DNA of 41,209 bases from a virus, in the IMG/VR virus record IMGVR_UViG_3300009506_000082, positions 1-41,209 of that record; one strand, 5' to 3'. The position numbers and the translations under genes are program-made. A model generated the notes under the pieces. That model was not told the DNA's origin. It was given only the letters and a program-made list of their open reading frames with translations, and made no database searches. Positions 4,384-36,239 of the stretch are shown piece after piece. Each line of letters begins with the position of its first letter. The first letter of the stretch is position 1.

Positions 4384-4395
4384 GAGGAATAAAAG

Positions 4396-10047: not shown

Positions 10048-10094
10048 TTGAATATCTGGAATTATTAGAAGCGACACAGAAGGGTATATAGAAA

Positions 10095-10125: not shown

Positions 10126-10148
10126 ATTGTCAAAAAAAGGAGAACAAA

Positions 10149-11223: not shown

Positions 11224-11267
11224 TAAAAGATTCCTGTTGAAAATTGAAAAAGAGAGGTAATTAAAAA

Positions 11268-11984: not shown

Positions 11985-12017
11985 TAAGGCACATTAATTA
12001 ATTAAGGAGGAAAAATT

Positions 12018-12923: not shown

Positions 12924-12944
12924 TAAAATCATAAGGAGATTAAA

Positions 12945-13474: not shown

Positions 13475-14167
13475 ATGAAAAAGTTTATATTACCAATCTT
13501 GGTTATCGGCCTGATTGGTGTTTTTATAGCGAAAGGAAAGACAAATTCTACCGATGTCAGGACTTCTATGGGCCAAGGAGCATTGTGGTCGACTGAAATT
13601 GAAAATCTTGACGGAAGCGGAAATTGGACTTTATATGGCAACGCATCTATTGGTGGGACACTTACACAAACTGGTGCTGCTGCATTCAGTGGAGCATTAA
13701 CATCTGGAAGTAATCTTACTATTACTGATGATGATTTAATCTTTGGTGATGGAACTGCACCAAGTACAACCACTACATCTGGTAATTCATATGGGACACT
13801 TGTGTATGCTTATCTTGGCGGTTCATCTGATGCACTAGAAGGTTCTGTCCTTGCTGCTACTTCAACTGTTGTTAGCGGATCAGGGATTACTGTTTGTGTT
13901 CAACCAGCAACACAGGATTTGACATCGGCTATTGGTATTGCTGCTGCTGCTGCATCAACTGGTTCTGTTGTTGGAATGTACATTAATGGATATGTATTGG
14001 CTCGCACAACCGGAACTGTCGCCGTTGGAAATACTCTTGTTCCATCAAATGCTGCCATTGGATATTTAGCAGCAGACACAACGCCTACGACTGGTGCTGA
14101 TATGGCAGTTGCTTTAAGTGCCGGAGTTACTACTGGGGGATTGACTAGGGTATTGCTGTACAAATAA
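13475..14167 (+). CDS. Membrane-anchored or exported beta-rich virion protein
   Basis: It starts with a Lys-Lys n-region and about 16 hydrophobic residues (MKKFILPILVIGLIGVFIAK), without a clear Ala-x-Ala site, so it may stay as an anchor. Residues 40-95 have the repetitive LDGSGNWTLYGNASIGGTLT style seen in phage fibres. The C-terminal half (ending GGLTRVLLYK) resembles head-decoration proteins. I start at the ATG after AGAGGTGG; a GTG nine bases upstream is in frame. First of the export-signal series. Confidence 0.55.
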   Translation: MKKFILPILVIGLIGVFIAKGKTNSTDVRTSMGQGALWSTEIENLDGSGNWTLYGNASIGGTLTQTGAAAFSGALTSGSNLTITDDDLIFGDGTAPSTTTTSGNSYGTLVYAYLGGSSDALEGSVLAATSTVVSGSGITVCVQPATQDLTSAIGIAAAAASTGSVVGMYINGYVLARTTGTVAVGNTLVPSNAAIGYLAADTTPTTGADMAVALSAGVTTGGLTRVLLYK

Positions 14168-14190
14168 GAATAGTGCCATAGGAGGCAAAA

Positions 14191-14814
14191 ATGAAAAAGA
14201 TAATTGCATTCTTATTTATATTGGCGATGCCAACACTGGGTTTTGCGTTTAGTCCTTTCGGACAAGGCGAAGAATATCTCGTACATTATTCAAGTGAAAC
14301 TGTTGATACGAATGCCAGCGTAATATTGCTTGATTTGTCAGATCAGACAAATTTTCACCATCTAAATACTGGTGGATTTGTCATTACTGATATATATGTA
14401 AGCGTTGATAGAACGGGGAGTTCTGGTGTTACCACATCTACTGGGAGCGTTAAAATAGGAGTTGTTAATCAGGTTGACGCATCAACTGGAAGCATATCCT
14501 ATTTCTATGAGTTCCCATTCTTTAAGGGTGGTTCTATGACATCTCCGGTTACGGATCATCGAAATTATCACGATCCAAACTTATACACGAAGATTGTCAC
14601 AAGCGGAACATATTATGCTGACGGATTGACTCCCTATATCCTAACCAATCTTGTTACAAGTGATTCGACATCATTTCAAACAGATGTTGCATTACCAAGT
14701 GTTTATGGGGGAAGTGGATATCCTGGCACCGGAGATATTATTGCTACTTTCACAGAGGCAACAGCAGGAAGTTATTCTGTGTCGATTGATATTATTTACC
14801 ATTCAAAACGGTAG
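14191..14814 (+). CDS. Exported virion-type protein (207 aa)
   Basis: A typical Sec signal peptide (MKKIIAFLFILAMPTLGFA, cut expected after GFA) is followed by a beta-rich, Ser/Thr-rich mature domain with no Cys. The ribosome site is AGGAGG. The mature part looks like a small fibre or decoration protein, but no family is recognised. It belongs to a run of five signal-peptide genes. Confidence 0.6.
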   Translation: MKKIIAFLFILAMPTLGFAFSPFGQGEEYLVHYSSETVDTNASVILLDLSDQTNFHHLNTGGFVITDIYVSVDRTGSSGVTTSTGSVKIGVVNQVDASTGSISYFYEFPFFKGGSMTSPVTDHRNYHDPNLYTKIVTSGTYYADGLTPYILTNLVTSDSTSFQTDVALPSVYGGSGYPGTGDIIATFTEATAGSYSVSIDIIYHSKR

Positions 14815-14830
14815 GCTATGGAGATGACCC

Positions 14831-15241
14831 ATGAGAACAATTATATTAATGATAGTCTTGGGAATTATATCTGCCGTAGCCTACCCCTATGGTAGAAGCG
14901 GAGATTTAGCAGATCCGACATTTATCACTACGGGGGATAATGCGGTATGTTTTTCTGTTACCGTAGATACCTCCTCACCTGTCCAAGTATATGACTCAAA
15001 TTCAACGGGAAAATGGGACAGGGAGATTTTAATACAGAATACGAGCAGTACATATGATATGTACTGCTCTACTTCTTCTACTGGATTTACTGCGTCATCG
15101 GGAAATCGTTTCTTATTGCCAAAAAATCCATCTGGATTCACAACCAATGGCCGTTATGATATTTATTGCATATTAGAAACATCGGCAGGAAGCGGCACTG
15201 CTGATGTAACAGGAGTCATCGAATATGATTCGAGAGACTAG
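14831..15241 (+). CDS. Exported hypothetical protein (136 aa)
   Basis: A signal peptide (MRTIILMIVLGIISAVA, cut after AVA) precedes a beta-rich domain containing three Cys (CFSV, MYCST, YCIL), where disulfides would be possible outside the cytoplasm. The ribosome site is GGAG. It overlaps the next gene by 17 nt. Confidence 0.6.
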   Translation: MRTIILMIVLGIISAVAYPYGRSGDLADPTFITTGDNAVCFSVTVDTSSPVQVYDSNSTGKWDREILIQNTSSTYDMYCSTSSTGFTASSGNRFLLPKNPSGFTTNGRYDIYCILETSAGSGTADVTGVIEYDSRD

Positions 15242-16043
15242 GAAATTATTGTTTTTATTGTTCCTAGTCCCTGGGTTATCTTTTGGCGCAAGAATATCGG
15301 GTGGTGGTGGAGGAGGAGCTACTACATTAAATGGATTAACGGATGTAGACGATTCGGGTAGGACTAAAAATGATGCCCTCCTTTTCAATGGAACAGAATG
15401 GGTAGCTGCTGCCCAAGGAACATCTTTTACATTTTCAATCAATACCTTCACCGACAACGTAGCTTCAACAATAGAAATGGGCCCCGCTAACGATCCATGG
15501 AAAACAGCGGGCCAACTCATTTTTTCTGCTACTTATAACAACGGCCCCCCAACCGATTCCTATGTTAGTCATGCGGGATGGGCCAATTTGACAATGACGA
15601 GTTCGTTTGAAGGGCCAACTGCAAATGTAGATGTCGCATCTTATCCCGCTTCCCCTGGTTCAAAAACATGGACACTCCATTCAACTGATGGGGTTGATTC
15701 CGATACCAAAAATTCAACTATCTATTTTTACAATAATCGTCACTGGGGAGTAACTTCGACCGCTAGTGGTTACGTTGAAGGAGATATAGAGGGATTAGCA
15801 GGAAGTGAATTATCAAATTCAAAAGCAAAAACCTTTACAGTCAATGCGGGTGCCGGTGAATATATCCTCTATTGTTATCCGAGTAGACTTGGTACAGCAA
15901 CATTTACTGTCGGAGGATTCGAGGGCGGATTTCAGTCGCCAGAAACAGTATCAGTTACAAATGCGTCTGGATATACGGAAAACTATTATGCCTATCGGTC
16001 AACAAACCATAGCCTTGGATCAACAACGGTGGTGGTGCAATGA
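15225..16043 (+). CDS. Exported fibre-like protein (272 aa)
   Basis: A signal-peptide-like start (MIRETRKLLFLLFLVPGLSF, cut near SFG) leads into a Gly-rich linker (six consecutive Gly) and the segment GLTDVDDSGRTKNDALLFNG, a pattern common near the N-termini of phage tail fibres. The rest is beta-rich. It overlaps the flanking genes by 17 and 4 nt (ATGA). Likely part of a fibre; the partner or receptor is unknown. Confidence 0.6.
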   Translation: MIRETRKLLFLLFLVPGLSFGARISGGGGGGATTLNGLTDVDDSGRTKNDALLFNGTEWVAAAQGTSFTFSINTFTDNVASTIEMGPANDPWKTAGQLIFSATYNNGPPTDSYVSHAGWANLTMTSSFEGPTANVDVASYPASPGSKTWTLHSTDGVDSDTKNSTIYFYNNRHWGVTSTASGYVEGDIEGLAGSELSNSKAKTFTVNAGAGEYILYCYPSRLGTATFTVGGFEGGFQSPETVSVTNASGYTENYYAYRSTNHSLGSTTVVVQ

Positions 16044-19000
16044 AAAAATTACTTTATCTTTTATTTCTTCTCCCGATTTCATTATGGGGTGCTGACGGAA
16101 CAGTTTTGGTTATTGACAAATTGGCTCCCAAAAATGGTGCATTTATTGGGATTGTTGATTCCTCACAAACTGTCAATAATGTCACTAATTTTAACGGTAA
16201 TCTATCGGCAAGCGAAACAACGGTTCAGGAAGCATTAGATGTTTTGGATGATTTAGCCATTGGAAGCGGAGGATCATCTGTTTATCCCGCAACTTCAACT
16301 ATTATCGCAGATTATGGAATAAGCGCATCCACGATTCAGATCGATTCTCTTTCTGGTGTACTTAAAGCAACAGGTGGAGATGTTTCCGGATCGGCCACTA
16401 CTTCTGATTTGCCAGAGGGCACTAATCTTTATTTTACAACCGAAAGAGCTACGAGTTCTATTTCTGCTACTGCACCATTAACCTATGAGAGTGGCGTTAT
16501 TGGCGCAACCTCATATTTTCTTTTAACTTCTTCTACAACTCTCTTAACAATAAGTTCTGTTACGGCGACATATTTACAATTATCATCAGCGACAGAAACT
16601 TATCTTCAATTATCAAGTGCCATTGCAACTTATCAGCCCATTGGTTCATACATCGAATCGGAATCCGATCCCCTCTCAATTTTAAATCAAAATACACTTC
16701 AAGTTGGTTCCACTTTCTACGTTTCGAGTGGTACAGTTGATGGGAATTTAACAGTTGGAGGAAATTTGACTGTTAATTCTACCGGATATTTTAGGGGATT
16801 AAATATTAACGCAGTTGAAATATGGGTTTCATCTACTTCGACTATTCAAAAAACAATCAATTCAATCACGGACGCTTCTGCCTCAAAGCCATATTTAGTT
16901 CATGTCCCGCCTGGTGTTTATAATGAAGAAATAACGATGAAGGCATATGTTTCATTGAAGGGTTCTGGAATTGATTCAACCATTATTTCACAGGATGAGG
17001 ATGCGACAATTAATCTTGCTAACGAAACAACATTATCAGATATGAGTGTTATTGCAACAGGAGTCGATGGTTTTGCCTTAGATATGTTGACAGCAAATGC
17101 AACTTGTTATTTGCATAATCTGTATATCGATGGGTCTTATGATTGCCTACTTGTCGCTGAGGATAATATTAACATCTATGCCCATGATATAGAAATGCTT
17201 GTCCGCTATGATGGAGTCGTTACTATTTCTGGAGCGGGTTGCAATGTTTATCTGTTTAATTTTGTCGTAGATCTCGCAGTTGCAGATCAGGCCACATTCG
17301 GCACATTTCGTGTAACCGCAACGAATTCAATGTTTGTTTTTAACCCTGTTATAAGAGGAGCAATAACTTATGACGGAGACACATCGAGAATATTTCAATG
17401 TGATAATGCAACCTTAAATATTTATAATCCCAAGTGCGAATTGTCTATCAACTTAGATTCGGCAAATTTCGACGCAGTTAATTCTACTGATAGTGGAACT
17501 GTTAATATTTATTCTGGAAGCATTATTGTTACGAATGAAGGGAACGGAAATACTTACGACCTTAACAATTCAGCAACATTAAATGTGTATGGAACAAAAT
17601 TTTCAACAACTCATGGAACCATTACCGGATTTGGAGTCGATGATGGAACACTCACCAGTTTTGCTGGAAATTTTCTTACGACCGGTGCTGGAACATTCAA
17701 TTCTATTTTAACCGAATCAATAGATTCTGCGGGCGGAACCGTAAGTTTTTCTGGAAATGATATCAGCTTTGGCATTGATGGAGTTGCGATTAATTTTGGT
17801 AATGCGGATGATGCCAATATTACCTTCGATGGGAATTCCATGAATCTTATTGCCAACGCAGTAACCAATACAGATGATATGGAATTCACGGCAGAAGGAT
17901 TTACATTCAATGGGAGTTCTATAACTTTTCCTGGACTAATTTCTGGTTCCACTATCACATTCTCAAGCGGAACATTTAGCGGAGAATTAACAGCCGGAGG
18001 AATTAACCTTCATCCAGCCGGAACCATTATTGTAGCAGCATCAGATTCACGAGGTAAAACACAAGCTGATTATATCTGTACCGGAACATCAGATGAAACC
18101 ACAATCAATAATGCCTTAACGGAAGGAGCCGGAGGAAAGGTATTTTTACTAGAAGGAACCTATACGATTGATGGTTCTATACTTGTACCGAGCAGCACAA
18201 CGCTTGAAGGGGCAGGATATGGAACTTTTATCACAATAGAGGCTGGCACTGACGGCCTAGATATGATTTCAAATTCAGATACAACAAATGGAAACAGCAG
18301 AATTAGAATCGCAAATCTAAGAGTTGACGGGAATGCAACACAGGCGACCACTGCTGCTGCACAAAATGGCATTGTTTTTCAAAAAGTAACACATTCGATT
18401 ATTGACGGAGTTTGGGCGGAACATTTAGGGCGTTCAGATCTTGCATCATGTATTGGAATTAAATTGTGGGGAGTGGATGATTCTGTCATTACGAAAAACA
18501 TCATAACAGATACAGTCGATGGAATTAATACCATGACCGTAAGCGATGCGTGCTATCGATTAACCATTACAAACAACATTATCAGCACAACAACCAGGGA
18601 CTACGGGATCAATTTGTTTTATATTTATGATTCCATTGTAGCCAACAATATTGTTCGTGAAAGTGCAAAAGATGGAATATTCCTTAATACTGTTTGTCAA
18701 AGAAATATCGTCGCCAACAATAAGGTAGAGAATAGCAGTCGTCTCACTGACAATACCTATTCTGGAATCGCAGTAGATAATCAAGCAACCGTAGCTGATA
18801 ATATCATTATGGGAAATATCGTCAGAGATGCAACTTCTGGTAACAATCAGAAATATGGGATTGAGGTTCAATCTGGAGCTTTGCGAACTAGAATCTACCA
18901 CAATGATTTATATGGTTCTGGTCAAACAGACGATTATATTGATGCTGGGACAAATACAATTTATGTTGGAAATACAACCTCAGTTGTTCAGAGCGATTAC

Positions 19001-22000
19001 GTGATTGGGAACAACACGGTTTTGGGAACAGGTGTAGCTGGCGTTGATTACACATTCACATTCGACGGGGAATCCAATGATGGTATTATCACTTGGTTAG
19101 AAGATGAAGGATATTGGAATCTAGATCATGATATTCAATTTGGAGATGATTTAGGGATTCAGCTCGGAGCAACACCAGACTCTAAACTATCTTTTGACGG
19201 AACAAGAACAAATCTGGATACGACCATAAGTGGAACAAGGCACGCATTCCTAGTAAATGGGCAACAGATGAGTTCTGTATCTACCACTGGAATTGGTTGC
19301 CAAGCGGGGGCCAATGGAGTTGCGATGGAATTCCAGGCCGATTCATCTGGCGCAGCAGGAAATTCAGCGAGCATATTGATGTTAGCTAAATCAGCTTCTT
19401 TTTCAGCAGTAGCCAATATTGAGATGGGTCATGCTATTAATCATAGTTCTAGAGATACTTATCTAGCTCTTGGAACAAGAGAAAATGGTTCTGCTAGCGC
19501 AGTAGAACATTTTAGGGTTGGAGCCAATGGAGATTTCAAATGGACTCCTGCCGCCGATACTGACATTTCACAATATTTTACTGGAACAACCAATTCTGGA
19601 ACTTATTATTGGATGGAAGATGAAGATTATTTTAGATTTGATGATGATGTTTTAATTAATTCTACTGAAAATCTTTACCTCAGAGATACGGACATTTCTA
19701 TTAATTCAGCCGATGATGGGCATTTAGACGTGGCTGCGGATACAAGCGTTGATTTTAACTCTCCTATTTTTGATTTATCAAATCAGACCGTTGCAGTAAC
19801 ATTGAATGATTCTGTCGATGCCCTTAATTTTGATAGCAATACTCTTTCAATAGACGCATCAAATGGGAGAGTTGGAGTCGGAACAGCCTCTCCGTCTACC
19901 AGTTTTCATGTGGCTGGAACAACTTCTACTAATTATGCCCAAGTAGATACTGGATTGGATTTTGATTTAGTTAGTGCGCCATCAGCACTTACTGCGACAT
20001 TAATAGAAGATGCCGGAGGTAATGTCACAGCCGGAGATCACCGATACTTTGTATCTTACGTTACAGATTTAGGGGAAACAAGCCGAGGAAATCTTAGTAA
20101 TACGGTTACTGCTGATGCCGCACATACAAAAGTTAGCTTAACGAATATTCCGGTTAGTTCAGATTATAGAGTAACTTCAAGAAAAATTTATAGAACGATT
20201 GCTTCGAGTCCTCTTTATCATTTTAAACTTCTTGCGACCATCGCAGATAATGTTACAACCACATATGAAGATAATTCTGCCGACGGAGATTTGACGGGCG
20301 GAGCATCCTATCCTGGTTATTACTATCTGGCAAATTCAACAAACAAATTAGTGTTAGTGGATGGGCAGATTTCAATGGTAATAGATGATGAAAATACCGC
20401 ATTCGGCTATCAGGCGGGAGATGCTTTAGTGGCCCCTGGTTCTCAGAATACAGTCATTGGACTTTCCGCTGGAACCAATTTAACGGAAGGAACCTATAAT
20501 ACTCTTTTAGGACATTTGACTGGAAGGGACATGACAACCGCTACGGGAAATACTCTGCTTGGAGCAACGGCAGGATATAGAATCACAGGAAATCTAAATA
20601 CAATAATTGGAAAATTTGCGGCATACGGACAAACAACGGCAGTAGCCAATACTATGCTGGGGGCTCACTCAGGATATACTACTTCATCTGGTGGATATAA
20701 TACTTATATTGGTTATTATTCCGGTTATAGCGGGAACGGAAGTAGCAACGTATTTCTAGGCCGACAAGCGGGCTATTACGAGACCAGCTCAAATAAATTT
20801 TTTGTAGATAATCAACCGAGAACCAATGAAGCAACAGGAAGAACAGATGCCCTTCTTTATGGAGATTTTTCTACTACTGTTTCGGCTCAACAATTAACTG
20901 TTAATGCGGGGACATTTAGCCTCAACGCTGGAACTGATACCGATCTTGTTGTGAATTTTAAAGGAACGACAAATTCTGGCCTATTAACATGGATGGAAGA
21001 TGAGGACTATTTTAAGTTTAGTGATGATGTCCAATTTATTGATAATGAGGCCATAGAATTAGGGACAGCCTCAGATGCCACTGTCTTATTCGATGGTAAT
21101 TCTCTTAATATTGTTGCCAATGCTGTTACAGCAACAGACGATTTGGAGATGACTGCTGAGACAATCCAATTAAACGGGAAAGTGGACGGCCCAATCGCAG
21201 GATATAAATTCAAGCTCGGCGATTCCGGCTACGGCTCAGGTTATTTCTTTAACGATGCCGAAACAATCACTGTCGGATTAAATTCCGCTGGTTCTGCTAT
21301 TTATGCGACAAACGGAGATTTCTTAGGGGATATTGGGAGAACGACTTCTGCCGGATTATTTAAAGATAACGGGTCAGGAAACGAAGTCATCGTAGCTTCC
21401 ACAACTCACGCACTTATTGTGACCGGAAGCAGTTATTTTTCAAGCGATATGCAGTTTCCAGATGATGCAAGAATTCTTTTGGGATCAGCTTTAACTGGTG
21501 ATTGCTCATTCTATTATGATGCTGATGATTTATATATGGACATAAGTGGCGCTGTTGCAACATCTGGAACTCCAGATATTGTAATGAAATTAAATGATAA
21601 TGCAGGAGCATCTATCTTCCACATTTTTGATTCTGATGATGTTACTCAATTTAATGTTGATAGCGACGGAAATATAAATTCGAATGGATCAATTTCTATA
21701 TCGAGCGTAATAATCCAAAATTCAATAATGAAACAATATTCAGGATCAAAAGAATTAACAGATGAATCGGCTATTGGATTTGTTGATATTACTATTGGTT
21801 CTGGCGAATTTCTTGGCGGTACAATCTTATATTCTATTTATGTCACTGGATCTGGAGAACTACAATCCCATAGTGGAAGTTTGGAATTTAATGCAATAAA
21901 TAAGGCTGGAACAGTTACGAGCGATATCGAGGAAACCTATTCCCCCGCAGCGGAATCCGAGGTTGTTTCTGCCGGAACACTTACGGATGATTATACTATT

Positions 22001-22120: not shown

Positions 22121-22135
22121 AAAAGGAGAATTAAA

Positions 22136-22435
22136 ATGAAAAGAATTATCACACTATCCGTAATCTTATCTTTGATTAGCGGATTTTCGTTGGCCGCAGA
22201 TCAGGTATTAACTGTCACTATTCCAGATGCGAAGGTTGCATACGCACTGGAAGGATTTCTTAAGATTCATCCAAATGATGAAGTCGATGGGGAGGGTAGT
22301 CCAATATATACAAACAGAGAATGGATTGAGGAATGTATCAGGAGATTTATTGTTAGGGAAGTAAATCGTGGGCAGAATATGATTTATCAAGAAAGCAAAC
22401 CTGTTCCAGATGACGCTACCGCAACGAGACAATAA
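22136..22435 (+). CDS. Small exported protein, IPD-type (99 aa)
   Basis: A signal peptide (MKRIITLSVILSLISGFSLA, cut before ADQ) precedes a domain starting VLTVTIPDAKVAYALEGFLK and ending with the helix EWIEECIRRFIVREVNRGQN. Short proteins with this IPD-strand plus basic helix are common near phage tail and lysis genes, normally without a signal peptide. A second copy of the same design lies at 35934. Strong AAGGAG site. Role unknown. Confidence 0.65.
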   Translation: MKRIITLSVILSLISGFSLAADQVLTVTIPDAKVAYALEGFLKIHPNDEVDGEGSPIYTNREWIEECIRRFIVREVNRGQNMIYQESKPVPDDATATRQ

Positions 22436-22453
22436 AAATAAAAGGGGGATAGT

Positions 22454-22684
22454 ATGAAGAAACTAGTAGTTGTTATCTTAACATTAATGTTAATTACACC
22501 GCTTTTTGCTGATAACTCAAAGCGGATTGAGGAGCTGACAAAAGAGGGAAAAGAATTGATCCAAAGGAAGCAGCAGTTAAACGATGCGCTTCAAAAGATT
22601 GATATTAGATTGATCCAGATCCAAGCAATAATTGATGAATTGAATAAACAAGATGAAGAAGTAAGAAAGGATAAAGACAGATGA
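22454..22684 (+). CDS. Exported coiled-coil protein (76 aa)
   Basis: A signal peptide (MKKLVVVILTLMLITPLFA, cut before DNS) precedes about 55 residues of continuous amphipathic helix (SKRIEELTKEGKELIQRKQQ). It overlaps the M23 peptidase start by 4 nt, and so heads the lysis cassette. A periplasmic coiled coil next to an endolysin resembles a spanin component, but there is no lipobox Cys and no clear partner. The fold is visible; the function is inferred. Confidence 0.6.
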   Translation: MKKLVVVILTLMLITPLFADNSKRIEELTKEGKELIQRKQQLNDALQKIDIRLIQIQAIIDELNKQDEEVRKDKDR

Positions 22685-23443: not shown

Positions 23444-23451
23444 GCGGTGAT

Positions 23452-24997: not shown

Positions 24998-25006
24998 GAG
25001 AATAAA

Positions 25007-25732: not shown

Positions 25733-28512
25733 AGAAACTTATCCCTATCCTTGCTTTTCTATTCTGTTCTTTTGCATTAGCAGAAGAATTCACATTTAAA
25801 GATTTGTCTGGTGGGATGTATTCATTCCCAACTGCTAATGCTATTCCAGATAATGCTGCATCTTATATCCAAAATTTCTACACAGATACCTATAATATGG
25901 CCGAAGAACGGAACGGCTATGAGAAAATGTCGGCAACTGCCCTTGGAAGTGGAAGCGATCCGGTAACAGGATTATGGAGATATTTTGATTCTGATGGGAA
26001 TGAATGGATTATAAGTTTTTCATCTCGTACATTCTGGAAAAATATTTCAGGCAATGCGCCAACACAATTTGGGCCGACGCAGACAGTTGATACTGTCCCA
26101 GATTGCGCAACGAACCTTGGCAAGATTTGGTGTACAGACGGGACAGATGATGTGTGGTGGTTCGATGGAACATCTACGGGAGCCGTTTCATCCGCCCCAA
26201 AAGGAAGATTAATAGAGCCATGGAGAACTCGACTTGCAATAGCAGATGTGGCAAGCAATCGCTCAACAATCTATATATCAGAAGATGGGGACGGAACAAG
26301 TTGGACGGCAGGAGACTTAGAAACAGATCCTTTCTACAAGCAAATAGGGGGAGCAAATGACGGGCAGTATATTACTGGTGTTGTTGGTTCATACTTAGAT
26401 AATCTGGTTGTATTCAGACGTAGCGACATTTGGTTCGGGCAAGGATTTGACCAGACAGATCTACAATGGCGGAAAGTATCCAATGAAGTTGGATGTATAG
26501 ACGGAAGAACTGTTCAAGAACTAGACGGTTCCCTATTGTTTCTATCTAATAGGGGAATGGAAAAGATGACGGGATGGAATATAGAAAATATTTCCGAACC
26601 CATCCGTAATTTCACTGATATCTTGGTTAAAAATACTGTTTCAGAGAGGTCAATAACACAAACATCCTATTCAGATTTCTCTGCCGGACAAACTACACAA
26701 ACGGTTGTTAATTATTATGAGGGGACTGTAAGTTTATCAACATCAGCAGCAACATTTTTTGTTGATTCTACTACAACCGATTTTAATGGCGGTACATTAA
26801 CAAATCTTACTGCCAATACCGCAAACGGTCTTTATCTAAGTACAAATGCAACATCTGGAACCGTATATTCATGCACAGGTGGAACTGAACCAGATGGTTC
26901 TGGATGTGGATGTGCTGCATATCAAGGAATAAAGAGTACATACACTTACAAATTGCATGGGCTAACAGTTAGGTTATCAAGAACATCAAGTGCAATAACA
27001 AATTTATACGCATATCTATATAGTAGTGCAGCCGGAGGAGGAGTTGGAACGCAATTAGCTAATCTTGGGAGTATAACTGTTGGAGATATCGCAGTTTATC
27101 CATCTTATACGGATTATTCTTTATCTTTTACAACTCAAACATTAGTTGCTAATTCAACTTATTATATTTATTTATTGGGATCAGGATGTTCTACTGTTTT
27201 ACCAGGATTCTGTTCTGGCGGAGTAGATAGGTGGTTTTATACTTACTATACAGAAACACCATGTAATGCGTATGGGTTATTATATGGTGTTAGTGCAACA
27301 GAAGAAATGAATTTTTCTTTATCTGGGAGCAGAAACAATTACGCTCCGAGTGGAAATATTGTTTCAGAAGAAATGGATGTTGGATTCTCAACAAATGTTT
27401 GGCTGTGGGATTGGTCAACATTATCTGCCACCACAACGACAGTTCTTGGAACAACAACAATTTCATGGGGAATACAAACTTCATCTGATACGAATGGAAC
27501 ATGGACATCAATATTTGTTTCTACTAATGGAAGCAATATTAATGCAACTGTTCAAAGATATATTAGATATACGGCAACCTGCACAACTACGGATACATAT
27601 TATTCCCCAACGATATCTAGTGTTTCAATAGAAACATCTAGTTTCATTAAATCTACAGGGTCATTTGTTACGTATCCATTTACTGTTGGTTCCGATATTA
27701 CTTCATGGGGGCCAGTATTTTTTAATGATAATACAAATGGAGGCTCAATAGCGTATCAATTCAAATCATCTTCAACACTAAACTTCGGCCCTACGGGATG
27801 GACAGATATTGTTTCTGGACAAACACCATCAAATTCAACTGATACATACGCTGCAATTAGGGCTACGTTTACGATAACCATGGCAACACAAGCTCCGAAT
27901 ATCGAAGATTTAACTATTTCATGGTCAGAGGGAAGTTCTCCGCAAAAAGCATCGACTGTTTACGATAGGAGATATTGGCTTTCATTTACAACCGGAACAG
28001 CTTCTGGTATCTATAATGATATTGCTCTCATATATCAAAGAAATAAATCGTGGACACTGTTTAGCAGAATAAATGCATCGAGTTATGCTTTATTTAGGGA
28101 TAAGAATTATTTTGGCGATTCAAGCGGAAACGGATATATCTATCTTTTTGATACCGGAAATACAGATGACTCGAATCCCATAACATCAGAGATAAGAACC
28201 AAATCATATGATATGGGTATCCCTCATAAGGAAAAGGAATTTAATAAATTGTATTTAAATGCCACCGGAAATCTTGGCTATGCAGGTTCCATTTCGATGT
28301 ATTATGATATAGATAGAAGTGAGAGCGAATACTCTATGGGAACATTAGCCTTGAATGAGGGCACAGGAAATCTTCTAACCAAGTTTCCATTCCCTGCATC
28401 TAATGTGATACAGGGCAGGGAGCTACAATATATTTTAAAGAAATCTGGAACAGGTAATAGGCTCATATTAGATGGCTTTATTACCGATCTAACACCAAAG
28501 GAGCCCAAATAA
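25729..28512 (+). CDS. Tail nozzle/stabilisation-like protein with signal peptide (927 aa)
   Basis: After a signal peptide (MKKLIPILAFLFCSFALA) the sequence starts with FKDLSGGMYSFPTANAIPDN and a following RNGYEKM, the N-terminal pattern of podovirus nozzle proteins (P22 gp10-type). A beta-rich, propeller-like body follows (WRYFDSDGNEWIISFSSRTF, RRSDIWFGQGF, FLSNRGMEKMTG). Long Ser/Thr-rich insertions (about 300-700) have a fibre-like look and are larger than in simple nozzles. The nozzle closes the short tail below the adaptor. Directly coupled to the adaptor gene. Confidence 0.7.
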   Translation: MKKLIPILAFLFCSFALAEEFTFKDLSGGMYSFPTANAIPDNAASYIQNFYTDTYNMAEERNGYEKMSATALGSGSDPVTGLWRYFDSDGNEWIISFSSRTFWKNISGNAPTQFGPTQTVDTVPDCATNLGKIWCTDGTDDVWWFDGTSTGAVSSAPKGRLIEPWRTRLAIADVASNRSTIYISEDGDGTSWTAGDLETDPFYKQIGGANDGQYITGVVGSYLDNLVVFRRSDIWFGQGFDQTDLQWRKVSNEVGCIDGRTVQELDGSLLFLSNRGMEKMTGWNIENISEPIRNFTDILVKNTVSERSITQTSYSDFSAGQTTQTVVNYYEGTVSLSTSAATFFVDSTTTDFNGGTLTNLTANTANGLYLSTNATSGTVYSCTGGTEPDGSGCGCAAYQGIKSTYTYKLHGLTVRLSRTSSAITNLYAYLYSSAAGGGVGTQLANLGSITVGDIAVYPSYTDYSLSFTTQTLVANSTYYIYLLGSGCSTVLPGFCSGGVDRWFYTYYTETPCNAYGLLYGVSATEEMNFSLSGSRNNYAPSGNIVSEEMDVGFSTNVWLWDWSTLSATTTTVLGTTTISWGIQTSSDTNGTWTSIFVSTNGSNINATVQRYIRYTATCTTTDTYYSPTISSVSIETSSFIKSTGSFVTYPFTVGSDITSWGPVFFNDNTNGGSIAYQFKSSSTLNFGPTGWTDIVSGQTPSNSTDTYAAIRATFTITMATQAPNIEDLTISWSEGSSPQKASTVYDRRYWLSFTTGTASGIYNDIALIYQRNKSWTLFSRINASSYALFRDKNYFGDSSGNGYIYLFDTGNTDDSNPITSEIRTKSYDMGIPHKEKEFNKLYLNATGNLGYAGSISMYYDIDRSESEYSMGTLALNEGTGNLLTKFPFPASNVIQGRELQYILKKSGTGNRLILDGFITDLTPKEPK

Positions 28513-28513
28513 T

Positions 28514-29089
28514 ATGGCTATTTCAACGACTATGGACACACTTGAGAATGGAACAAAAGCATCTAACAAGACCCCGACATTTGAGGACATTCAGGGATTG
28601 CTTAACGCACCTATCCAAATTAAGCAACCTACTTCTATAAGTCCAATTACCCAATCTATGATTGATATATTACAGAAACGTGCGGAATCTGCTGTAAGGG
28701 CAGGAGCCGTTAGGCGTGGAATGGAGGGCTCATCTACCGAATTATTTAATATCGGGAGAGCTACAACCGAGGCTGCGTTGCCATTAATTCAATCTGATAT
28801 TGAGAGGCAAACTGGGGTAGCAACCAGCGAAGCACAACTGAATCTGAATAGACTTATTTCACTAGGCGGATTAACAAGCGACGAAATAGCATCGCTCAGA
28901 TATATGGATGATGCTGAAAAGAATAGATTCCTTCAAGAGAAACTTGGCGGTATGCAAATAGGGGCAGCCATGTCTGCTGCCGATAAACAGGAACACGCTG
29001 CCAGTACGGCTGCGAAATCAGGGATATGGGGAAGTCTCATAGGTGGTGCTGCGGCTGGCGGAACAGCAGCGGCCGTCGCACGATTCTAA
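28514..29089 (+). CDS. Putative internal virion protein (191 aa)
   Basis: Mostly helical, with a Gly/Ala-rich hydrophobic C-terminus (SGIWGSLIGGAAAGGTAAAV) that could insert in a membrane. Small proteins of this build are ejected with DNA in short-tailed phages (P22 gp7-like). No export signal. It begins one base after the nozzle stop and overlaps the next start by one base (TAATG). Confidence 0.55.
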   Translation: MAISTTMDTLENGTKASNKTPTFEDIQGLLNAPIQIKQPTSISPITQSMIDILQKRAESAVRAGAVRRGMEGSSTELFNIGRATTEAALPLIQSDIERQTGVATSEAQLNLNRLISLGGLTSDEIASLRYMDDAEKNRFLQEKLGGMQIGAAMSAADKQEHAASTAAKSGIWGSLIGGAAAGGTAAAVARF

Positions 29090-29523
29090 TGGAATACAAA
29101 AGACTATATAAGATTGAAGCTGACCAGATAACTGATTGTATTAATTTAATTCAATCATTTATAAATAAAGCAAATGAGTATGAAGGAGATGTGTTCCAAA
29201 TATATAACGAGATGTTAGCTAACCTAAAAGATGGATATGTATTTGGGATGGTTCACGATGGATGCCTACTTGGTCTTTGTTCGGTCCATGTATTCAAGAT
29301 ACATAATATATTAAAAACAGCCTATGTTCATTTCATATCAATAGATGATTGGGTTTATGGAGCAGAACAAGTTAAAGAGTTTATTTCATTCGCAATTAAC
29401 GAAGGGAAGAAAGACGGTATTGAGAACATCATGTTCAATACAAGAAGAAACTGGAAGGCGTTCAAAAGATTCCTGCCTGGCAAGTGGGAGAAGGATTCGG
29501 TGACATTAAAGCTATGTGTATGA
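29089..29523 (+). CDS. GNAT-like acyltransferase fold protein (144 aa)
   Basis: The start is the ATG in TAATG; the frame is open further upstream but inside the previous gene. The order of a first helix pair, strands (GYVFGMVHDGCLLGLCSVHV), the central AYVHFISIDDWVYG strand and a helix after it (VKEFISFAINEGKKDGIENI), then RRNWKAFKRF, fits the GNAT fold. The acyl-CoA loop is not clear, so activity is uncertain. Similar proteins often sit among internal virion genes of phages. Confidence 0.55.
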   Translation: MEYKRLYKIEADQITDCINLIQSFINKANEYEGDVFQIYNEMLANLKDGYVFGMVHDGCLLGLCSVHVFKIHNILKTAYVHFISIDDWVYGAEQVKEFISFAINEGKKDGIENIMFNTRRNWKAFKRFLPGKWEKDSVTLKLCV

Positions 29524-30194
29524 TAAGCGGATGTATTACAAAAGATTACGGACTAATCGCATCAGATTCTGCCCTATGGAACCCAAACAATAAAACCATC
29601 TCATTTGATAATCCAAAGCTGATGAAGATAGGGAATAGGCATTTAATGACATATATCGGCTCGCAACTATTCTTTACAAATATTGATATAGAGAAATTCA
29701 AGATGCCATTTGATTGTCTTGTGGTTTATCTATCTGAATATTTTAGGGAAATCAATCAGACTGTCCAAGACACATTCAATGGATTGGTTACTGACGATAA
29801 GGAGAAGCCAGCGAAGATATGCGTGTTTATACTTGGCGTCCATAACGGGGCACCTGTATTGGCACAGATTAATAGCTTCCTCGATTTCAAACCTCAATTC
29901 ATACTAAGTGGAGATGATATTAAATTCTCTGGATTGTATTACGGCGAAGATGATATTGAGAAGAATGAAGTATTCAAGAAATCGACTGAGTATATGGAGG
30001 AGTTGGCTAAGAAGCATGAGGGGAAAATAACACCTGGACTTGCTGGCGAGATATTAACCAGGGGGATATATCATAAAGCAGATTTAGAAGAACAGATTGG
30101 TGATAAGGTCAAGTATGCCGGAGGCGTTGTAAGCGTTGCCACAATATATTCCAATGGACAAATATCGTCACCATCTAATTTGATAAATATTTAA
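29514..30194 (+). CDS. Proteasome-like Ntn-hydrolase, candidate Cys nucleophile
   Basis: The N-terminal region CITKDYGLIASDS, the later FILGVHNGAPVLAQIN strand pair, FILSGDD and YAGGVVSVATIY follow the proteasome beta-subunit/HslV pattern. Starting at 29514 gives Met-Cys; the Cys then aligns with catalytic Thr1, Asp falls at position 17 as in proteasomes, and a Lys (34) lies near Lys33. The start at 29520 (ATGA overlap) would lose this Cys. The enzyme would be self-exposed by Met removal. Family members cut peptide bonds. It lies among internal virion genes, so a maturation or ejected role is possible but unproven. Confidence 0.6.
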   Translation: MCMISGCITKDYGLIASDSALWNPNNKTISFDNPKLMKIGNRHLMTYIGSQLFFTNIDIEKFKMPFDCLVVYLSEYFREINQTVQDTFNGLVTDDKEKPAKICVFILGVHNGAPVLAQINSFLDFKPQFILSGDDIKFSGLYYGEDDIEKNEVFKKSTEYMEELAKKHEGKITPGLAGEILTRGIYHKADLEEQIGDKVKYAGGVVSVATIYSNGQISSPSNLINI

Positions 30195-30204
30195 GGAGGA
30201 ACTT

Positions 30205-31128
30205 ATGGCCGTTTTTCAACCAAGAGATGTAAATTTAGCACCGTTCTATGAAGGGATAGCAAGGTCTAAGGAGAAGGAAGGGGAAGCAAAAGCGCAGGCT
30301 GCTGTTGCGAAACTTGCTCCTATACAAGCTGGCGTAGATGCTATTTCTAAGGTTGGTAATTTTTATTTAACAAAACAACTTGAAAAGAAAATAGCAGATC
30401 AAGATAAAATGATTATACCGGAAGATGTGAGGAAGAATTTTATTATTAATCAGCTTAATGCTCCAGAAGGTTCACCTGAATTTTTTAGACTAATGGAATT
30501 ATCTGGAAAATATAAAGGAGATGTTCCATCTATAATGAAAATAGTGAGTGAAACTGGACAAGCAATTAAAGAGGGCACCGCTATTGATGATTATTTAAAA
30601 TCACCTGAGTTTGCAAAACTTACACCAAAAGAACAGGGAGAAATAAAATTGCAACTAGGATTTCCTGGTGGGCGTGAGGAATTATTTAAGCGTTTTGGAC
30701 GTGAGGCTGAAATTAAAAAGACAGCAGAAGTGTCCTCAAAAACTGGAGGAGCAGCATTAGGGACTGATAAATTGAAAGCAAAGTATATGCAGGAATATAT
30801 TTCCGGAGATTTAGATGCCAACACTCCAGAGAACAATAGAAAAAAAGACTACATACAAGATGAATTAAGAGATCCCGATATAAAAACGTCCTTAGAAATA
30901 CTATCAAAAAGTTTGGCTGTGTCTGGAATGAAATCACAAGATATTATGAACTTGGTATTAAATTTCGCAAACACGCTAAAAGTACAACGACTCCCAGTCG
31001 AGAAAAGAATAGTTACAGTTAAAACATCTGATGGGAATGAATTTACTATACCAGAGACTAAATTAGAAGAAGCAAAAAAAAGAGATCCAAACTTAAAAAT
31101 ATTAAGACATGGCGAATCAAAACAGTAA
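30205..31128 (+). CDS. Putative internal/ejection protein (307 aa)
   Basis: AAGGAGG precedes the ATG. The sequence is highly helical and charged (begins MAVFQPRDVNLAPFYEGIAR), with an Ala-rich coiled segment and no export signal. The C-terminus has a short GNEFTIPETKLEEAKKRDP motif, similar to a small beta-hairpin-helix repeat seen at the ends of virion proteins. It overlaps the next gene by 20 nt. Confidence 0.5.
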   Translation: MAVFQPRDVNLAPFYEGIARSKEKEGEAKAQAAVAKLAPIQAGVDAISKVGNFYLTKQLEKKIADQDKMIIPEDVRKNFIINQLNAPEGSPEFFRLMELSGKYKGDVPSIMKIVSETGQAIKEGTAIDDYLKSPEFAKLTPKEQGEIKLQLGFPGGREELFKRFGREAEIKKTAEVSSKTGGAALGTDKLKAKYMQEYISGDLDANTPENNRKKDYIQDELRDPDIKTSLEILSKSLAVSGMKSQDIMNLVLNFANTLKVQRLPVEKRIVTVKTSDGNEFTIPETKLEEAKKRDPNLKILRHGESKQ

Positions 31129-33757
31129 AATAGATCTCTCTGATTTGACTGTTGATTCTATTCAACAACAGAATAAACCAGAAGAACAAAATAAGAAATT
31201 CGATTTATCTGACCTTATAGAAAAAGGCAAGGGATTAGTTACTAATATTATACCTACCGAAAATAAGGGTTCATCTATTGATTTGTCTGATTTACAAGCA
31301 GAAGCAAGCAATCAAATAGAAGAAAATATAAAGCCAGAAGAACCAATGCAGGAACCACTTCCAACGTTTGAAATAGATCAAAGGACATCTACGGTTAGAG
31401 ATTTAGATCCGACTAAGAAAGTGGATTATATGGGGCTATGGAAAACTACTAGATTGCCTTCTCAGGCATTAAGGAAAATAGCACAAGATCTAATAGATAA
31501 ACTTCCAGATCCGGAATCAAAGTCTGTTGTTGTAAATTTTGCGCTTGGTTCCCCAAAAGCATTGGCAGAGATATTGGCTGATGTCGGAAGTGGATATGCT
31601 ACACCAGAAGCATTGGCATTATTTGGTCTTGGCAAATATGCTCCTATGCTGGCAGAAAGTCCAGTAGCTAAAGAAGGGATAAAGAAAATAGGAGCATTAG
31701 TTCCAGACCAAGTAAAGAAATTTATGTTTTATAGATTCAAGCAACCAGAAGAATACGTTAAATTAGCAGAAGGGATGATCCGTAATATTAAGCAAGGTAT
31801 GCAAAAGGTTTCATCTATTGGAAAGGGAATGTTTAAATTGAATGAGCCAGAAAGAGTATTAGCTGCACAATATCTTAAGGGAGAAATAGGTGCTTCTGGA
31901 TTATCAGATGATTTATTAAAAGTAGCACAAGAAGCCAGGGATGAATTTGTTACGCTTGGTAAAGATGCGGTTGATTTAGGATTGCTGCCAAAAGATGTTT
32001 ATGAAGCAAATCTTAAGACATACCTACCAAGATTCTATTCATCAAAAGAACCGACAGAAAAATTGGGTGGTATTATATTTCCGAAGAAACCAATAAGAGT
32101 AGATTTATCACGATTCAAGAAGAGAGGAGATATACCAGAAAACGTAAGAGAAGCTATGGGTGAGATAATAGAAGCTGGATATCCCACTGTAAAAGGATTG
32201 TCACAATTACGCCATGCAGTTGAAACACAGAGACTATTTAAGAATGTTTCTATTAATCCGGAATGGTCAACTCCGTCTGCTGAAATTGCAGCCAAATTGG
32301 GATTCACAAAATTGCCCGAAGTTAAATCACTTGGTTCGCTTAGTGGAAAATATGTTCATCCTTATATAGCAGATGACATAAATCAAATTATACGGCCCAG
32401 AACAAATTTTGAAAAGATATGGAATCCATTAATAAGCAAATGGAAATACGGCAAAGTCGTATTGAACCCAGCAACACATTTCAGGAATATGCTGTCTAAC
32501 TCAATACTTGCTGATATGGGCGGATTGAACCATTTGCAGCAAATCAGATTGATGCCAAAAGCATTAAAAGAAATATTTAAGAAAGGTAAATTATATAACG
32601 AATTAAAGGATGAGGGGGTTATAGGGGTTGAGTTTGTTGGGGGAGAAATAAAGAATCTGATGAAATCTTTTGCAGGAGAAAAGGGGCCGTTAATAGAAAG
32701 AATATCTAAGATATCTGGGAGAGTTGGGGATGCGATGATGAAATTCAGAAACAATGTTCGTGGAGCATCTGAATTTCTCGGTAAAGTATATCAGGGAGAA
32801 GAACAGCTTTATAAAATGATGAAATATATTCGCAATAGAGAACTCGGAATGGATGTTAAAGCTGCTGCTGCCGATGCAGAGAAGTGGCTTTTTAACTATG
32901 AAAAGGTTTCGCCATTTATTGATAAGGTTAGGCAAAGTCCACTAGGTTCTCCATTTATAACATTTACATCAAAAGCATTGCCTAGAATTGCTGAGACCGC
33001 AGTTACTAATCCGTTGAAACTTTATAAATATAAACTTCTATTCGATTCTATTGAGAACAGGGCACAAAAGTCGCTCAATCTATCAGATGACGAAATTCAA
33101 ACAATAAAGAAAAATTCAAGGGGACAGGTTTTAATTCTTCCATTTAGAGATAAAGAAGGAAGTGTTATGACTCTTGACTTATCGTATATTTTGCCATGGG
33201 GAGACATAGGAGAAGTTGGAGGGATTGAATTAGCAGGGGCAAAACTCCCTCCGGTTGCTCCTCCTTCTGGACCGATTAAATCAATAATTGAACTTGGGTT
33301 TAATAAAAATACTTTTTCAGGTAGACCAATTTATAATGATTATGATTTTCCGTCAGAAAAAGTACAAAAATCAATAGACCATATTGCCAGAACAATTCTC
33401 CCAAGTCTAACGCCTGGCGGGATAGAAGAAGATTCTCTGATTAAAGGTGGATATTCTTTCAGCAAAATAGTTAAAGCAATACAAAAAAGACCGGATTATT
33501 TTGGAAGGGTTAGAGGGCTTCCAGTTGTATTGGCAGATACAATACTTGGAATAAAATTAATTCCAGCAGACCCGACCCTTATGAAATCTCTCGAAATATC
33601 AAAAAAGAGGGGTCAAATTATGGATTTACAAAGAGATATGAGGGCGAAGATGAGAAATCAATCATTAAGTGAAGATTACAAGATGAAACTTATGGATAAA
33701 TATCCAGAAAAATTGAATAGAATTTTAGGCATAAACGAAAAAGAGGGTACAAAATGA
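31109..33757 (+). CDS. Large internal virion protein (882 aa)
   Basis: The N-terminal 65 residues are polar and carry three copies of a motif [I/F]DLSDL (residues 8-13, 31-36 and 57-62). A long helical region follows, containing LSGKYVHPYIADDINQIIRP and KVVLNPATHFRNMLSN, which resemble segments of large virion-packaged proteins in other phages. Membership of an ejection complex is inferred from size, helicity and position. No catalytic motif is recognised. ATGA overlap with the next gene. Confidence 0.6.
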   Translation: MANQNSKIDLSDLTVDSIQQQNKPEEQNKKFDLSDLIEKGKGLVTNIIPTENKGSSIDLSDLQAEASNQIEENIKPEEPMQEPLPTFEIDQRTSTVRDLDPTKKVDYMGLWKTTRLPSQALRKIAQDLIDKLPDPESKSVVVNFALGSPKALAEILADVGSGYATPEALALFGLGKYAPMLAESPVAKEGIKKIGALVPDQVKKFMFYRFKQPEEYVKLAEGMIRNIKQGMQKVSSIGKGMFKLNEPERVLAAQYLKGEIGASGLSDDLLKVAQEARDEFVTLGKDAVDLGLLPKDVYEANLKTYLPRFYSSKEPTEKLGGIIFPKKPIRVDLSRFKKRGDIPENVREAMGEIIEAGYPTVKGLSQLRHAVETQRLFKNVSINPEWSTPSAEIAAKLGFTKLPEVKSLGSLSGKYVHPYIADDINQIIRPRTNFEKIWNPLISKWKYGKVVLNPATHFRNMLSNSILADMGGLNHLQQIRLMPKALKEIFKKGKLYNELKDEGVIGVEFVGGEIKNLMKSFAGEKGPLIERISKISGRVGDAMMKFRNNVRGASEFLGKVYQGEEQLYKMMKYIRNRELGMDVKAAAADAEKWLFNYEKVSPFIDKVRQSPLGSPFITFTSKALPRIAETAVTNPLKLYKYKLLFDSIENRAQKSLNLSDDEIQTIKKNSRGQVLILPFRDKEGSVMTLDLSYILPWGDIGEVGGIELAGAKLPPVAPPSGPIKSIIELGFNKNTFSGRPIYNDYDFPSEKVQKSIDHIARTILPSLTPGGIEEDSLIKGGYSFSKIVKAIQKRPDYFGRVRGLPVVLADTILGIKLIPADPTLMKSLEISKKRGQIMDLQRDMRAKMRNQSLSEDYKMKLMDKYPEKLNRILGINEKEGTK

Positions 33758-35025
33758 GCCAAATTCCACAAGAACGAGATATATTAAAGCAAGACTTATG
33801 GAAGCGGATAGATAACACATGGGAACAAACCAATAATCTCGCCAAAGAGATATATGCGAATGTAGATAAGGTTCGGGAAGGGTTGATGGCCTATTATGAA
33901 AAGGTTGTCGAAGCATACGGGAAATATAAGGCTCAGTTGGCAGACGATAACAAGGCAAACTTTATAGATTTAAAAAGGGTTCTGAACGCAATTTCCGACG
34001 ATAACAATAATATTTTAATACTCAGGCATGAGACAAGCCTTGCTGATTTGAAGAACTTTATCGCCACAAAGGTAGAAGATATTGGCCGGATGGTTGATGG
34101 GAAGCTCATAGAATTAAAGGAGATGGAGAAGAAGATTAATACAGGTCAAGATGAGCTGATTAAGAAACAGATTAACGCACTTGATAGCCTTGACACCAAG
34201 TTCTCTAAAGAAATTGCTTTTATAAACGAAGATTTGAAAAATAGATTTAACCAATTCTCTCTTATTAATCTTGAAATAAAGAAGCAATATGATATTGCGA
34301 TTGAATCTGCGAATGTTATTTCCGAACAGCTACGGCGAGACGGGGTTGAGATATTGAATGATTACAAATCTGAATTATTCGGATCGGTGCGGGACGAAGT
34401 AGAAAAATTAAATCTAAGGTGCGACGCAATACTCAAGCGTGTTGAATCAGAGGTATCCAATTTTGAGAATTACAACGACTTGGTATTCGGGATAGAGTTT
34501 GTAAAGAACAATATAACTGATATATGGGGTGCTATTGACAATGAAATAGACGGCAGAAAGAAGAAGTGGGAGGAATTGAACAATAAGATTTTAGAAATAA
34601 ATAAAGGGCACTCCGGTGCTTATGATAATCTTGTTAAAGAAGTGAATAAACTTAAGGAGGAACTCATAGTGTTTTCAAACAATGAGCTTGTTGGAGTAAA
34701 GAAAGAGCTGGAGAAATTCGTACAGAATGAAATTAATAGGCTGATATTAAATCAAAATGATTTCCTTAAAAAGATTGATGACAAAATCAAGATTATGAAT
34801 CAGCAGGTTAATGATAGGGTTAATACAGAAATTGAATTTAGAATGAACACAATGATTCAGACAGCCCAGGATACTGATAGGAAGGTGGATGTGTTTGAGA
34901 AGGGGATGAAGAAAGCAATGGCAAACTATCAGAATGAGCTGATGGAAAAGTTTAATGAAATGAGATTAAAGTTTGAGCGTGTCATCTCCAATATGAAATC
35001 ATTGTCTGGAATGCTATCAAAATGA
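33754..35025 (+). CDS. Long coiled-coil protein (423 aa)
   Basis: Nearly the whole sequence is charged heptad-like helix (for example LKEMEKKINTGQDELIKKQI), without Cys clusters or an export signal. AGAGGG before the ATG; 4-nt overlaps with both neighbours. It could be the coiled-coil stalk of a fibre or an internal protein. It separates the internal-protein genes from a signal-peptide fibre gene. Confidence 0.6.
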   Translation: MSQIPQERDILKQDLWKRIDNTWEQTNNLAKEIYANVDKVREGLMAYYEKVVEAYGKYKAQLADDNKANFIDLKRVLNAISDDNNNILILRHETSLADLKNFIATKVEDIGRMVDGKLIELKEMEKKINTGQDELIKKQINALDSLDTKFSKEIAFINEDLKNRFNQFSLINLEIKKQYDIAIESANVISEQLRRDGVEILNDYKSELFGSVRDEVEKLNLRCDAILKRVESEVSNFENYNDLVFGIEFVKNNITDIWGAIDNEIDGRKKKWEELNNKILEINKGHSGAYDNLVKEVNKLKEELIVFSNNELVGVKKELEKFVQNEINRLILNQNDFLKKIDDKIKIMNQQVNDRVNTEIEFRMNTMIQTAQDTDRKVDVFEKGMKKAMANYQNELMEKFNEMRLKFERVISNMKSLSGMLSK

Positions 35026-35924
35026 AGAAGTTCCTATATTTATTATTATTTTCTCCGCTACTTTTATTTGCAGACCCCAGGTTCCCGCTTCCCAAGACGC
35101 AATCTGAGATATGGCAGAACGATCTGGATTTGAGGGATGAAATTAAAACATATCTTCCGTTGTCTGGCGGGACGCTGACGGGAGCAATTTATTTTCCCGC
35201 TGGTTCTGTTTCTGCTCCGTCCATTTCGTTTGATGGCGATACGAATACCGGAATTTATCAAATTGCAGCTGATAACATTGGTTTTTCAGCAAACGGTTTA
35301 TTGTCTCTTAGAATTACAAGTGCAAGAATTTTAGTTTCGAGTGGTGTTCTTGCTGGCCCAGGAATTAGTTTTATAGATGATGACGACTCCGGTATTTATT
35401 TGCCTTCTGACGGAAATGTGGCGGTGGTAACGGCGGGTACTTCCAGAATGAACTTCAACGCATCTGGTATAACAAAACCGACCCAGCCTTGTTTCTTGGC
35501 TTTTAATTCTGCCACAGATGCAAACGTGACCGGAGACGCTACCCTTGTTACGGTAGATTTTGATACGGAAGTTTTTGATACTGGCGGTAATTTTGCAAGC
35601 GATACATTTACGGCACCCGTAACGGGGAAATACCAATTTAACGCACAGGTGAGAGTAAACATGGATTCTTCTCACGATGGGGGATACATTTCTCTTTATT
35701 TAGTGACATCGAACAGGACTTATTATTACTGGCATTCAATAGGGACATCCAGTACGAGAGAAGGTATTTCTGGTTCGTGGTTAACCGATATGGATGCAAG
35801 CGATACCGCTTATATTCAGGTTGTTGTTTCCGGCTTACCATATGGTACTGGAACAAAGGATGTGGATGTTGATGGAAACGGAACGACTTTATTGACTTCC
35901 TTTTCCGGAAGTTTAATTAATTAA
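35022..35924 (+). CDS. Tail fibre with signal peptide and C1q-like tip (300 aa)
   Basis: A signal peptide (MKKFLYLLLFSPLLLFA, cut before DPR) is followed by classic fibre units: LPLSGGTLTGAI near residue 46 and two FDGDTNTGIY/DDDDSGIY-type repeats. The last 140 residues look like a C1q/TNF-type trimeric domain: FTAPVTGKYQFNAQVRV, then WLTDMDASDTAYIQVVVSG, ending SFSGSLIN. Such tips bind receptors. Clear fibre identity plus a clear export signal makes this the strongest single case of the signal-peptide pattern. Confidence 0.82.
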   Translation: MKKFLYLLLFSPLLLFADPRFPLPKTQSEIWQNDLDLRDEIKTYLPLSGGTLTGAIYFPAGSVSAPSISFDGDTNTGIYQIAADNIGFSANGLLSLRITSARILVSSGVLAGPGISFIDDDDSGIYLPSDGNVAVVTAGTSRMNFNASGITKPTQPCFLAFNSATDANVTGDATLVTVDFDTEVFDTGGNFASDTFTAPVTGKYQFNAQVRVNMDSSHDGGYISLYLVTSNRTYYYWHSIGTSSTREGISGSWLTDMDASDTAYIQVVVSGLPYGTGTKDVDVDGNGTTLLTSFSGSLIN

Positions 35925-35933
35925 GGAGATTTT

Positions 35934-36239
35934 ATGAGGAAACTATTTTTTATCTTTTTCTTTTTGCCTTCTGTACTATATGCAAAACAGGTTGCATTTG
36001 ATATTCCAGACAACGATATTAAAATTGTCGAGAATGATGTTTTTGACGCTATTGAATGGTTAGAGAACGCATGGAAAGGGAAGGTTGAATCATGCGGGGA
36101 TAGAATCGTTAAGGAAGAATTAAACCTTTCCATAACGAATAACGAATCGCTTCCTGCCGGAAAAGACGCAATCATAGAGAAATATTTCAATCGGCCTGGA
36201 TATAAAAGCCGAAAAGAGAAAGAGGGCAAATCTAATTAA
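35934..36239 (+). CDS. Small exported protein, IPD-type (101 aa)
   Basis: A signal peptide (MRKLFFIFFFLPSVLYA) is followed by VAFDIPDNDIKIVENDVFDA, the same strand-plus-helix design as the protein at 22136. AAGGAG before the ATG. It is the last gene of the plus-strand unit and overlaps the convergent minus-strand gene by 8 nt at the stops. No terminator is visible between the two units. Confidence 0.6.
   Translation: MRKLFFIFFFLPSVLYAKQVAFDIPDNDIKIVENDVFDAIEWLENAWKGKVESCGDRIVKEELNLSITNNESLPAGKDAIIEKYFNRPGYKSRKEKEGKSN

Follow-up and report, generated by a model that had tools for sequence, protein, structure and literature searches.

Why should the structural proteins of a tailed phage begin with export signals? 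In the textbook view, tailed phages assemble entirely in the cytoplasm, and the packed head is closed immediately by its adaptor and nozzle. The question is raised by a 41,209-nucleotide stretch of viral DNA (IMG/VR record IMGVR_UViG_3300009506_000082, positions 1 to 41,209; hereafter, the window), where the initial annotation had picked out eleven plus-strand genes, including those of the head-tail adaptor and the nozzle, whose products start with a lysine- or arginine-containing n-region followed by a hydrophobic core. Comparison of the window with related viruses revealed that selection keeps export-type leaders on the tail proteins and off the head and internal proteins of the same genomes. 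These leaders are almost certainly conserved and specific to this clade.

Signal peptides were called with a custom rule for Sec substrates, which asks for lysine or arginine in the n-region, an uncharged hydrophobic core of at least seven residues and small residues at -3 and -1; genes of at least 50-60 residues were counted. All eleven genes open where they had been placed, each with a lysine or arginine start and a hydrophobic core, and the rule called exactly these eleven plus one minus-strand gene (38561-39007). This corresponds to 12 of the 51 window genes, compared with 27 of the 1,902 genes (1.4%) in 131 loci of terminase relatives (Fisher p = 6e-11). The same rule called none of 51 genes in T7 and 3 of 69 in P22, with no virion protein among them, called 0.3% of residue-shuffled window N-termini, and recovered 10 of 11 known E. 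coli Sec substrates. The window leaders have a positive n-region, an uncharged hydrophobic core and a polar c-region, and they carry neither the cysteine at +1 of a lipoprotein signal nor the RR-x-FLK motif of a twin-arginine (Tat) signal. Small residues occupy -3 and -1, without proline at +1 (AVA, GFA, SFG, SLA, LFA, AKA, ALA and LYA sites), and the plausible peptidase site claimed for most of the genes is borne out as an A-x-A-type site in most of those called; the site of 13475 is weak (AKG followed by KT). Ribosome sites are good on most leader-bearing genes. The called genes and their leaders are as follows.

13475..13537, plus strand: leader MKKFILPILVIGLIGVFIAKG, also present in four homologues or positional equivalents of the clade, of which three have a clear site
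13475..14167, plus strand: 230-residue small virion-type protein in the structural module, behind the capsid genes; no PHROG or Pfam family
14191..14247, plus strand: signal peptide MKKIIAFLFILAMPTLGFA, cut at its end; leader in homologues of four relatives
14191..14814, plus strand: 207-residue tail/fibre-module protein
14831..14881, plus strand: signal peptide MRTIILMIVLGIISAVA, cut at its end; leader 19-31% identical, next 80 residues 39-64%
14831..15241, plus strand: 136-residue tail/fibre-module protein
15225..15287, plus strand: signal peptide MIRETRKLLFLLFLVPGLSFG, cut at its end; leader, and AR-I-x-G start directly after it, kept in L155 and L156
15225..16043, plus strand: 272-residue fibre-type protein
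16040..16090, plus strand: signal peptide MKKLLYLLFLLPISLWG, cut at its end; the large fibres of two relatives likewise begin with leaders
16040..22120, plus strand: 2026-residue fibre containing a stretch of beta-helix (Pfam Beta_helix at E 3e-5, narrowly missing the cut-off; tblastn match to a tailspike)
22136..22435, plus strand: 99-residue protein, signal peptide ending SLA, followed by AD; adjoins the wall-enzyme genes
22454..22684, plus strand: 76-residue coiled-coil protein, signal peptide ending LFA, followed by DN
25007..25069, plus strand: adaptor signal peptide MRKLFLSLVFSLTLFTGFAKA, cut at its end
25007..25732, plus strand: head-tail adaptor, SU10 type (Pfam SU10_adaptor, E 3e-19, residues 31-225)
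25729..25782, plus strand: nozzle signal peptide MKKLIPILAFLFCSFALA, cut at its end; kept in the L169 nozzle (44% identical overall)
25729..28512, plus strand: 927-residue putative nozzle (P22 gp10-like, tail tube B position); weak tblastn matches to tail/stabilization proteins of marine podophages
35022..35072, plus strand: signal peptide MKKFLYLLLFSPLLLFA, cut at its end
35022..35924, plus strand: 300-residue tail fibre with a C1q-like end (tail fibre PHROGs; Pfam C1q, E 3e-5)
35934..36239, plus strand: 101-residue protein, signal peptide ending LYA, followed by KQ; leader kept in L170:11219-11518
38561..39007, minus strand: 148-residue protein with signal peptide MKKLVFIICFFLPINILG, cut at its end; outside the late module, no family found

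The four proteins spanning 13475-16043, though unassigned, sit within the late structural module. Two of the eleven originally named proteins, 22136 and 22454, adjoin the wall-enzyme gene and may be ordinary lysis-type exported proteins. The adaptor leader ends where the SU10_adaptor domain begins, and no other ATG, GTG or TTG lies within the first 40 codons of the gene, so the leader must be translated. The nozzle ATG overlaps the adaptor stop; the protein has no PDB match, and its assignment as the nozzle rests mainly on its position after the adaptor. AlphaFold models of both were too weak to use (predicted local distance difference test scores of 58 for the adaptor and 31 for the nozzle). 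Inside gene 14831, a near-perfect 27-base-pair palindrome matches itself on the other strand (window 15043-15069).

Six IMG/VR contigs (L155, L156, L158, L159, L161 and L163), with portals 50-58% identical to that of the window, served as relatives, and their best matches were taken as orthologues. A capsid search recovered L155 (77%) and L156 (66%), and a portal alignment the other four; single-protein scans with the adaptor, terminase and nozzle found no relatives, generic terminase scans returned distant ones only, and a search of cellular genomes with two queries found no cellular relative. L158 and L163 extend through the adaptor, nozzle and fibres. Leaders are present in orthologues of 14191 (four relatives), 14831 (three), 15225 (L155 and L156), the adaptor (two), the nozzle (one clear case), 35022 (two, plus one partial match) and 35934 (one). 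For 13475, the leader occurs in three relatives, and a fourth leader-bearing gene, L161:6606, stands in the same place; three of these homologues have clear sites (LFA, GYA and VFA), which makes the membrane anchor previously read into 13475 less likely. Within the clade, then, homologues do not start downstream of the hydrophobic stretch, whereas leaderless adaptors are the rule outside it. The terminase large subunits of two clade members, L162:5736-9071 (1111 residues) and L158:5555-7843 (762 residues), are longer than that of the window (475 residues), and the L162 protein carries an intein-like sequence inside its ATPase region (CFDDKTEILTTSGW).

The leaders diverge in sequence and keep their build. 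Between orthologues, leader identity is 12-50%, against 38-64% over the 80 residues that follow, and the leader has the lower value in 9 of 11 pairs (for example, 25% against 64% in 14831, and 15-20% against 38-46% in the adaptor); even so, the leaders retain their charge, their hydrophobic core and the small residues of the cut site. For 14831, leader and mature start read MRTIILMIVLGIISAVA and YPYGRSGDLADPTF in the window, MKKLSCLLMLLGGIASLAFG and YGRSGDLADPTF in L156, and MRNLVGVITLMGLLITPLIVFS and YGRSGNLADPSF in L155, the mature start YGRSGDLADPTF being conserved among homologues. Diverged sequence with a kept build is the pattern in which real signal peptides evolve. Moreover, across the clade the conserved region of the adaptor, the nozzle, 14831 and 15225 begins precisely where the small -3/-1 residues lie.

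Two blocks of the window are free of leaders.

4873..13457, plus strand: head module with terminase, portal (7224-9443), scaffold (10107-10958), capsid (12018-12923) and neighbours; signal peptides absent here and in every relative
28514..35025, plus strand: internal/ejection-type proteins and accessory genes; signal peptides likewise absent from window and relatives

The portal matches SU10_portal (Pfam, E 2e-10) and the capsid matches Mu-like gpT. The annotated list of proteins without a signal proved right by our rule: terminase, portal, scaffold, capsid and internal proteins of the window were not called, and neither were the M23 wall enzyme (22681) and the NlpC-like wall enzyme. No leader was found in any orthologue of the terminase, portal, 9444, 9805, scaffold, 10933, 11268, capsid or 12945, nor in any orthologue of the decoration protein, 28514, 29026 or 29514. 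Between the nozzle and the ejection genes lies a protein conserved at 40-46% (window 29484-30194; L169:5355-6005; L170:6082-6744), which reads like a proteasome-type Ntn hydrolase (ASDSA...PKL) and has no Pfam or PHROG match; it is a possible maturation protease.

Outside the clade, about 40 adaptors of the SU10 type, taken from named phages and further contigs, begin at the domain, without a leader. In a tree built after removal of the leaders, the three signal-bearing adaptors (the window and two relatives) group together (support 100/96) on a long branch; one change of state suffices on this tree, although the placement of the long branch is uncertain. This suggests that the adaptor and nozzle signals were gained once, in this clade. 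The nearest genomes outside it by terminase (36-39%), G001 and L109, bear signals on genes of fibre or decoration type beside the adaptor and capsid, but not on the adaptor, and the G001 nozzle also lacks a leader. Signals on outer tail parts may thus be older, with those on the adaptor and nozzle added in this clade. G001 (L011 and L091) is an uncultured podovirus-like genome in which decoration-type proteins, fibre proteins and a lysozyme carry signals (L091:1533-1874 and 2987-3901; L011:18136-18594 and, on the minus strand, 4293-4724). In L109:15757-18416, two signal-peptide genes, one of them with Lcl_C (DUF1566), precede genes for a short four-helix protein and a reverse transcriptase; the arrangement resembles a diversity-generating retroelement whose target is exported.

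Leaders of this kind direct Sec export and are removed by signal peptidase I. We consider it very probable that most of the window leaders are working Sec signal peptides, and, judging from the gene sequences, we lean slightly towards a model in which tail parts are exported, are cut by signal peptidase I and meet heads already filled with DNA once the inner membrane opens at lysis. In this model, the host Sec system would export the adaptor, nozzle, fibre and neighbouring tail-module proteins, signal peptidase I would remove the leaders, and the tail parts would gather beyond the inner membrane, in the periplasm, while heads form and fill in the cytoplasm. At lysis, the holin would open the inner membrane and the heads would meet the tails, which would snap onto the portal; P22-type tail parts can attach in a test tube. 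Because the M23 wall enzyme lacks a signal, the inner membrane has to be opened in any case. With heads and tails stored apart, tails would be kept from joining incomplete heads, and the fibres could fold under oxidising conditions. Where tails meet heads is close to an even call, and we put forward only tentatively the fuller version, in which the clade builds heads in the cytoplasm, stores the whole tail, adaptor and nozzle included, outside the inner membrane, and completes virions only at membrane opening or after lysis.

Several points tell against this model. Export, cleavage, timing and assembly site are all things that we infer, the signal-peptide rule is home-made, and several orthologue groups have two to four members only. 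With its adaptor beyond the inner membrane, a newly packed head cannot be sealed before lysis, an apparently costly arrangement. Cysteines number 7.1 per 1000 residues in the mature exported set against 2.8 in the non-exported structural set, which would weakly suit an oxidising compartment, but the difference is modest and several of the proteins have a single cysteine. N-glycosylation as the reason for export was rejected, as sequons are not enriched beyond composition. Finally, the start of the L163 nozzle is broken up by an HNH insertion, and its leader cannot be assigned a start, although a hydrophobic stretch and an AxA-like site are present. The insert is an antisense HNH endonuclease gene between adaptor and nozzle (L163:16179-16830) that overlaps the nozzle leader; an intron at this joint was considered and rejected, with no Rfam match.

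Could the leaders do something else? The proposal that tail parts are secreted or tethered before joining heads stands as regards Sec routing, with both the leaders and the head/tail split conserved. Uncut leaders might instead tether tail proteins at the inner membrane, where tails would be built and heads would dock, and the weak 13475 site and the long hydrophobic cores, which could anchor, speak for this. However, leaders with lysine or arginine on the inside put the protein body outside the cytoplasm, beyond the reach of cytoplasmic heads, and tethering is less likely than cleavage because the small-residue sites directly adjoin the beginning of the conserved domains; we regard it as unlikely. 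The N-termini of SU10 fibres rest on the adaptor (PMC9509320); leaders left uncut would therefore occupy tight interfaces, a point in favour of cleavage. The same contact could be turned round, with the leaders as packing helices kept in the virion that glue together the adaptor, nozzle and fibres, the very proteins that meet at the adaptor ring. Contact helices should conserve their sequence, though, whereas these leaders diverge to 12-50% identity and keep only the order of charge, hydrophobic core and AxA site; the small proteins 35934 and 22454 have leaders too, and we think this reading improbable.

We give the same low weight as to tethering to a second use for an exported pool, such as host display, receptor blocking or debris coating, with virions made from a minority of unexported protein. 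G001 (L011) and L109, with signals on fibre-type genes only, fit this idea, as does the likely retroelement target among them, but the adaptor and nozzle have no obvious role outside the virion, and the adaptor lacks an internal start for a leaderless form. An unusual host cell plan, with an extra compartment or early loss of the inner membrane, would make export the normal route to the assembly site. In its favour, clade members come from uncultured viruses for which the two-query search found no cellular relative, yet the heads and internal proteins of the same genomes appear not to be exported, and we rate it marginally below the packing helices. Wrong start codons or chance hydrophobic N-termini are rejected as extremely improbable given the ribosome sites on most of the genes, the adaptor start, the enrichment and the conservation in six other contigs.

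Three known groups of phages or phage proteins come closest. Among the filamentous phages, the M13 virion proteins pIII and pVIII have Sec signal peptides and assemble at or beyond the inner membrane. Their genes are unrelated, and the window phage differs in having a separate head packed with double-stranded DNA and lysis genes. Among tailed phages, the short-tailed SU10/P22 type (Kuravirus, Lederbergvirus and marine relatives) shares with the window the Pfam SU10 adaptor and portal, the terminase and the order portal-scaffold-capsid-adaptor-nozzle-ejection proteins; the differences are the Mu gpT-like capsid of the window and the absence of leaders from the adaptors and nozzles checked outside the clade. 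Lysis proteins, namely signal-peptide or signal-arrest-release (SAR) endolysins and spanins, likewise show tailed phages using host Sec (for example, PMC8951688), whereas in the window the structural proteins bear the signal and the wall enzymes do not. The literature that we searched, with incomplete coverage, described signal peptides on endolysins, holins and spanins but none on an adaptor or nozzle, and no tailed phage that exports tail parts before head joining. If our model is correct, a clade that marks exactly its tail parts for export breaks the rule of cytoplasmic assembly and ties the completion of virions to the opening of the membrane. Signal peptides in phage genomes, moreover, need not indicate lysis or virulence genes.

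Two repeats lie towards the right end of the window. GPALGTAL low-complexity repeats occupy 40940-41167, and an alanine/tyrosine/aspartate repeat lies inside a 174-residue protein on the minus strand (39294-39818), the non-repeat part of which is common to G001.

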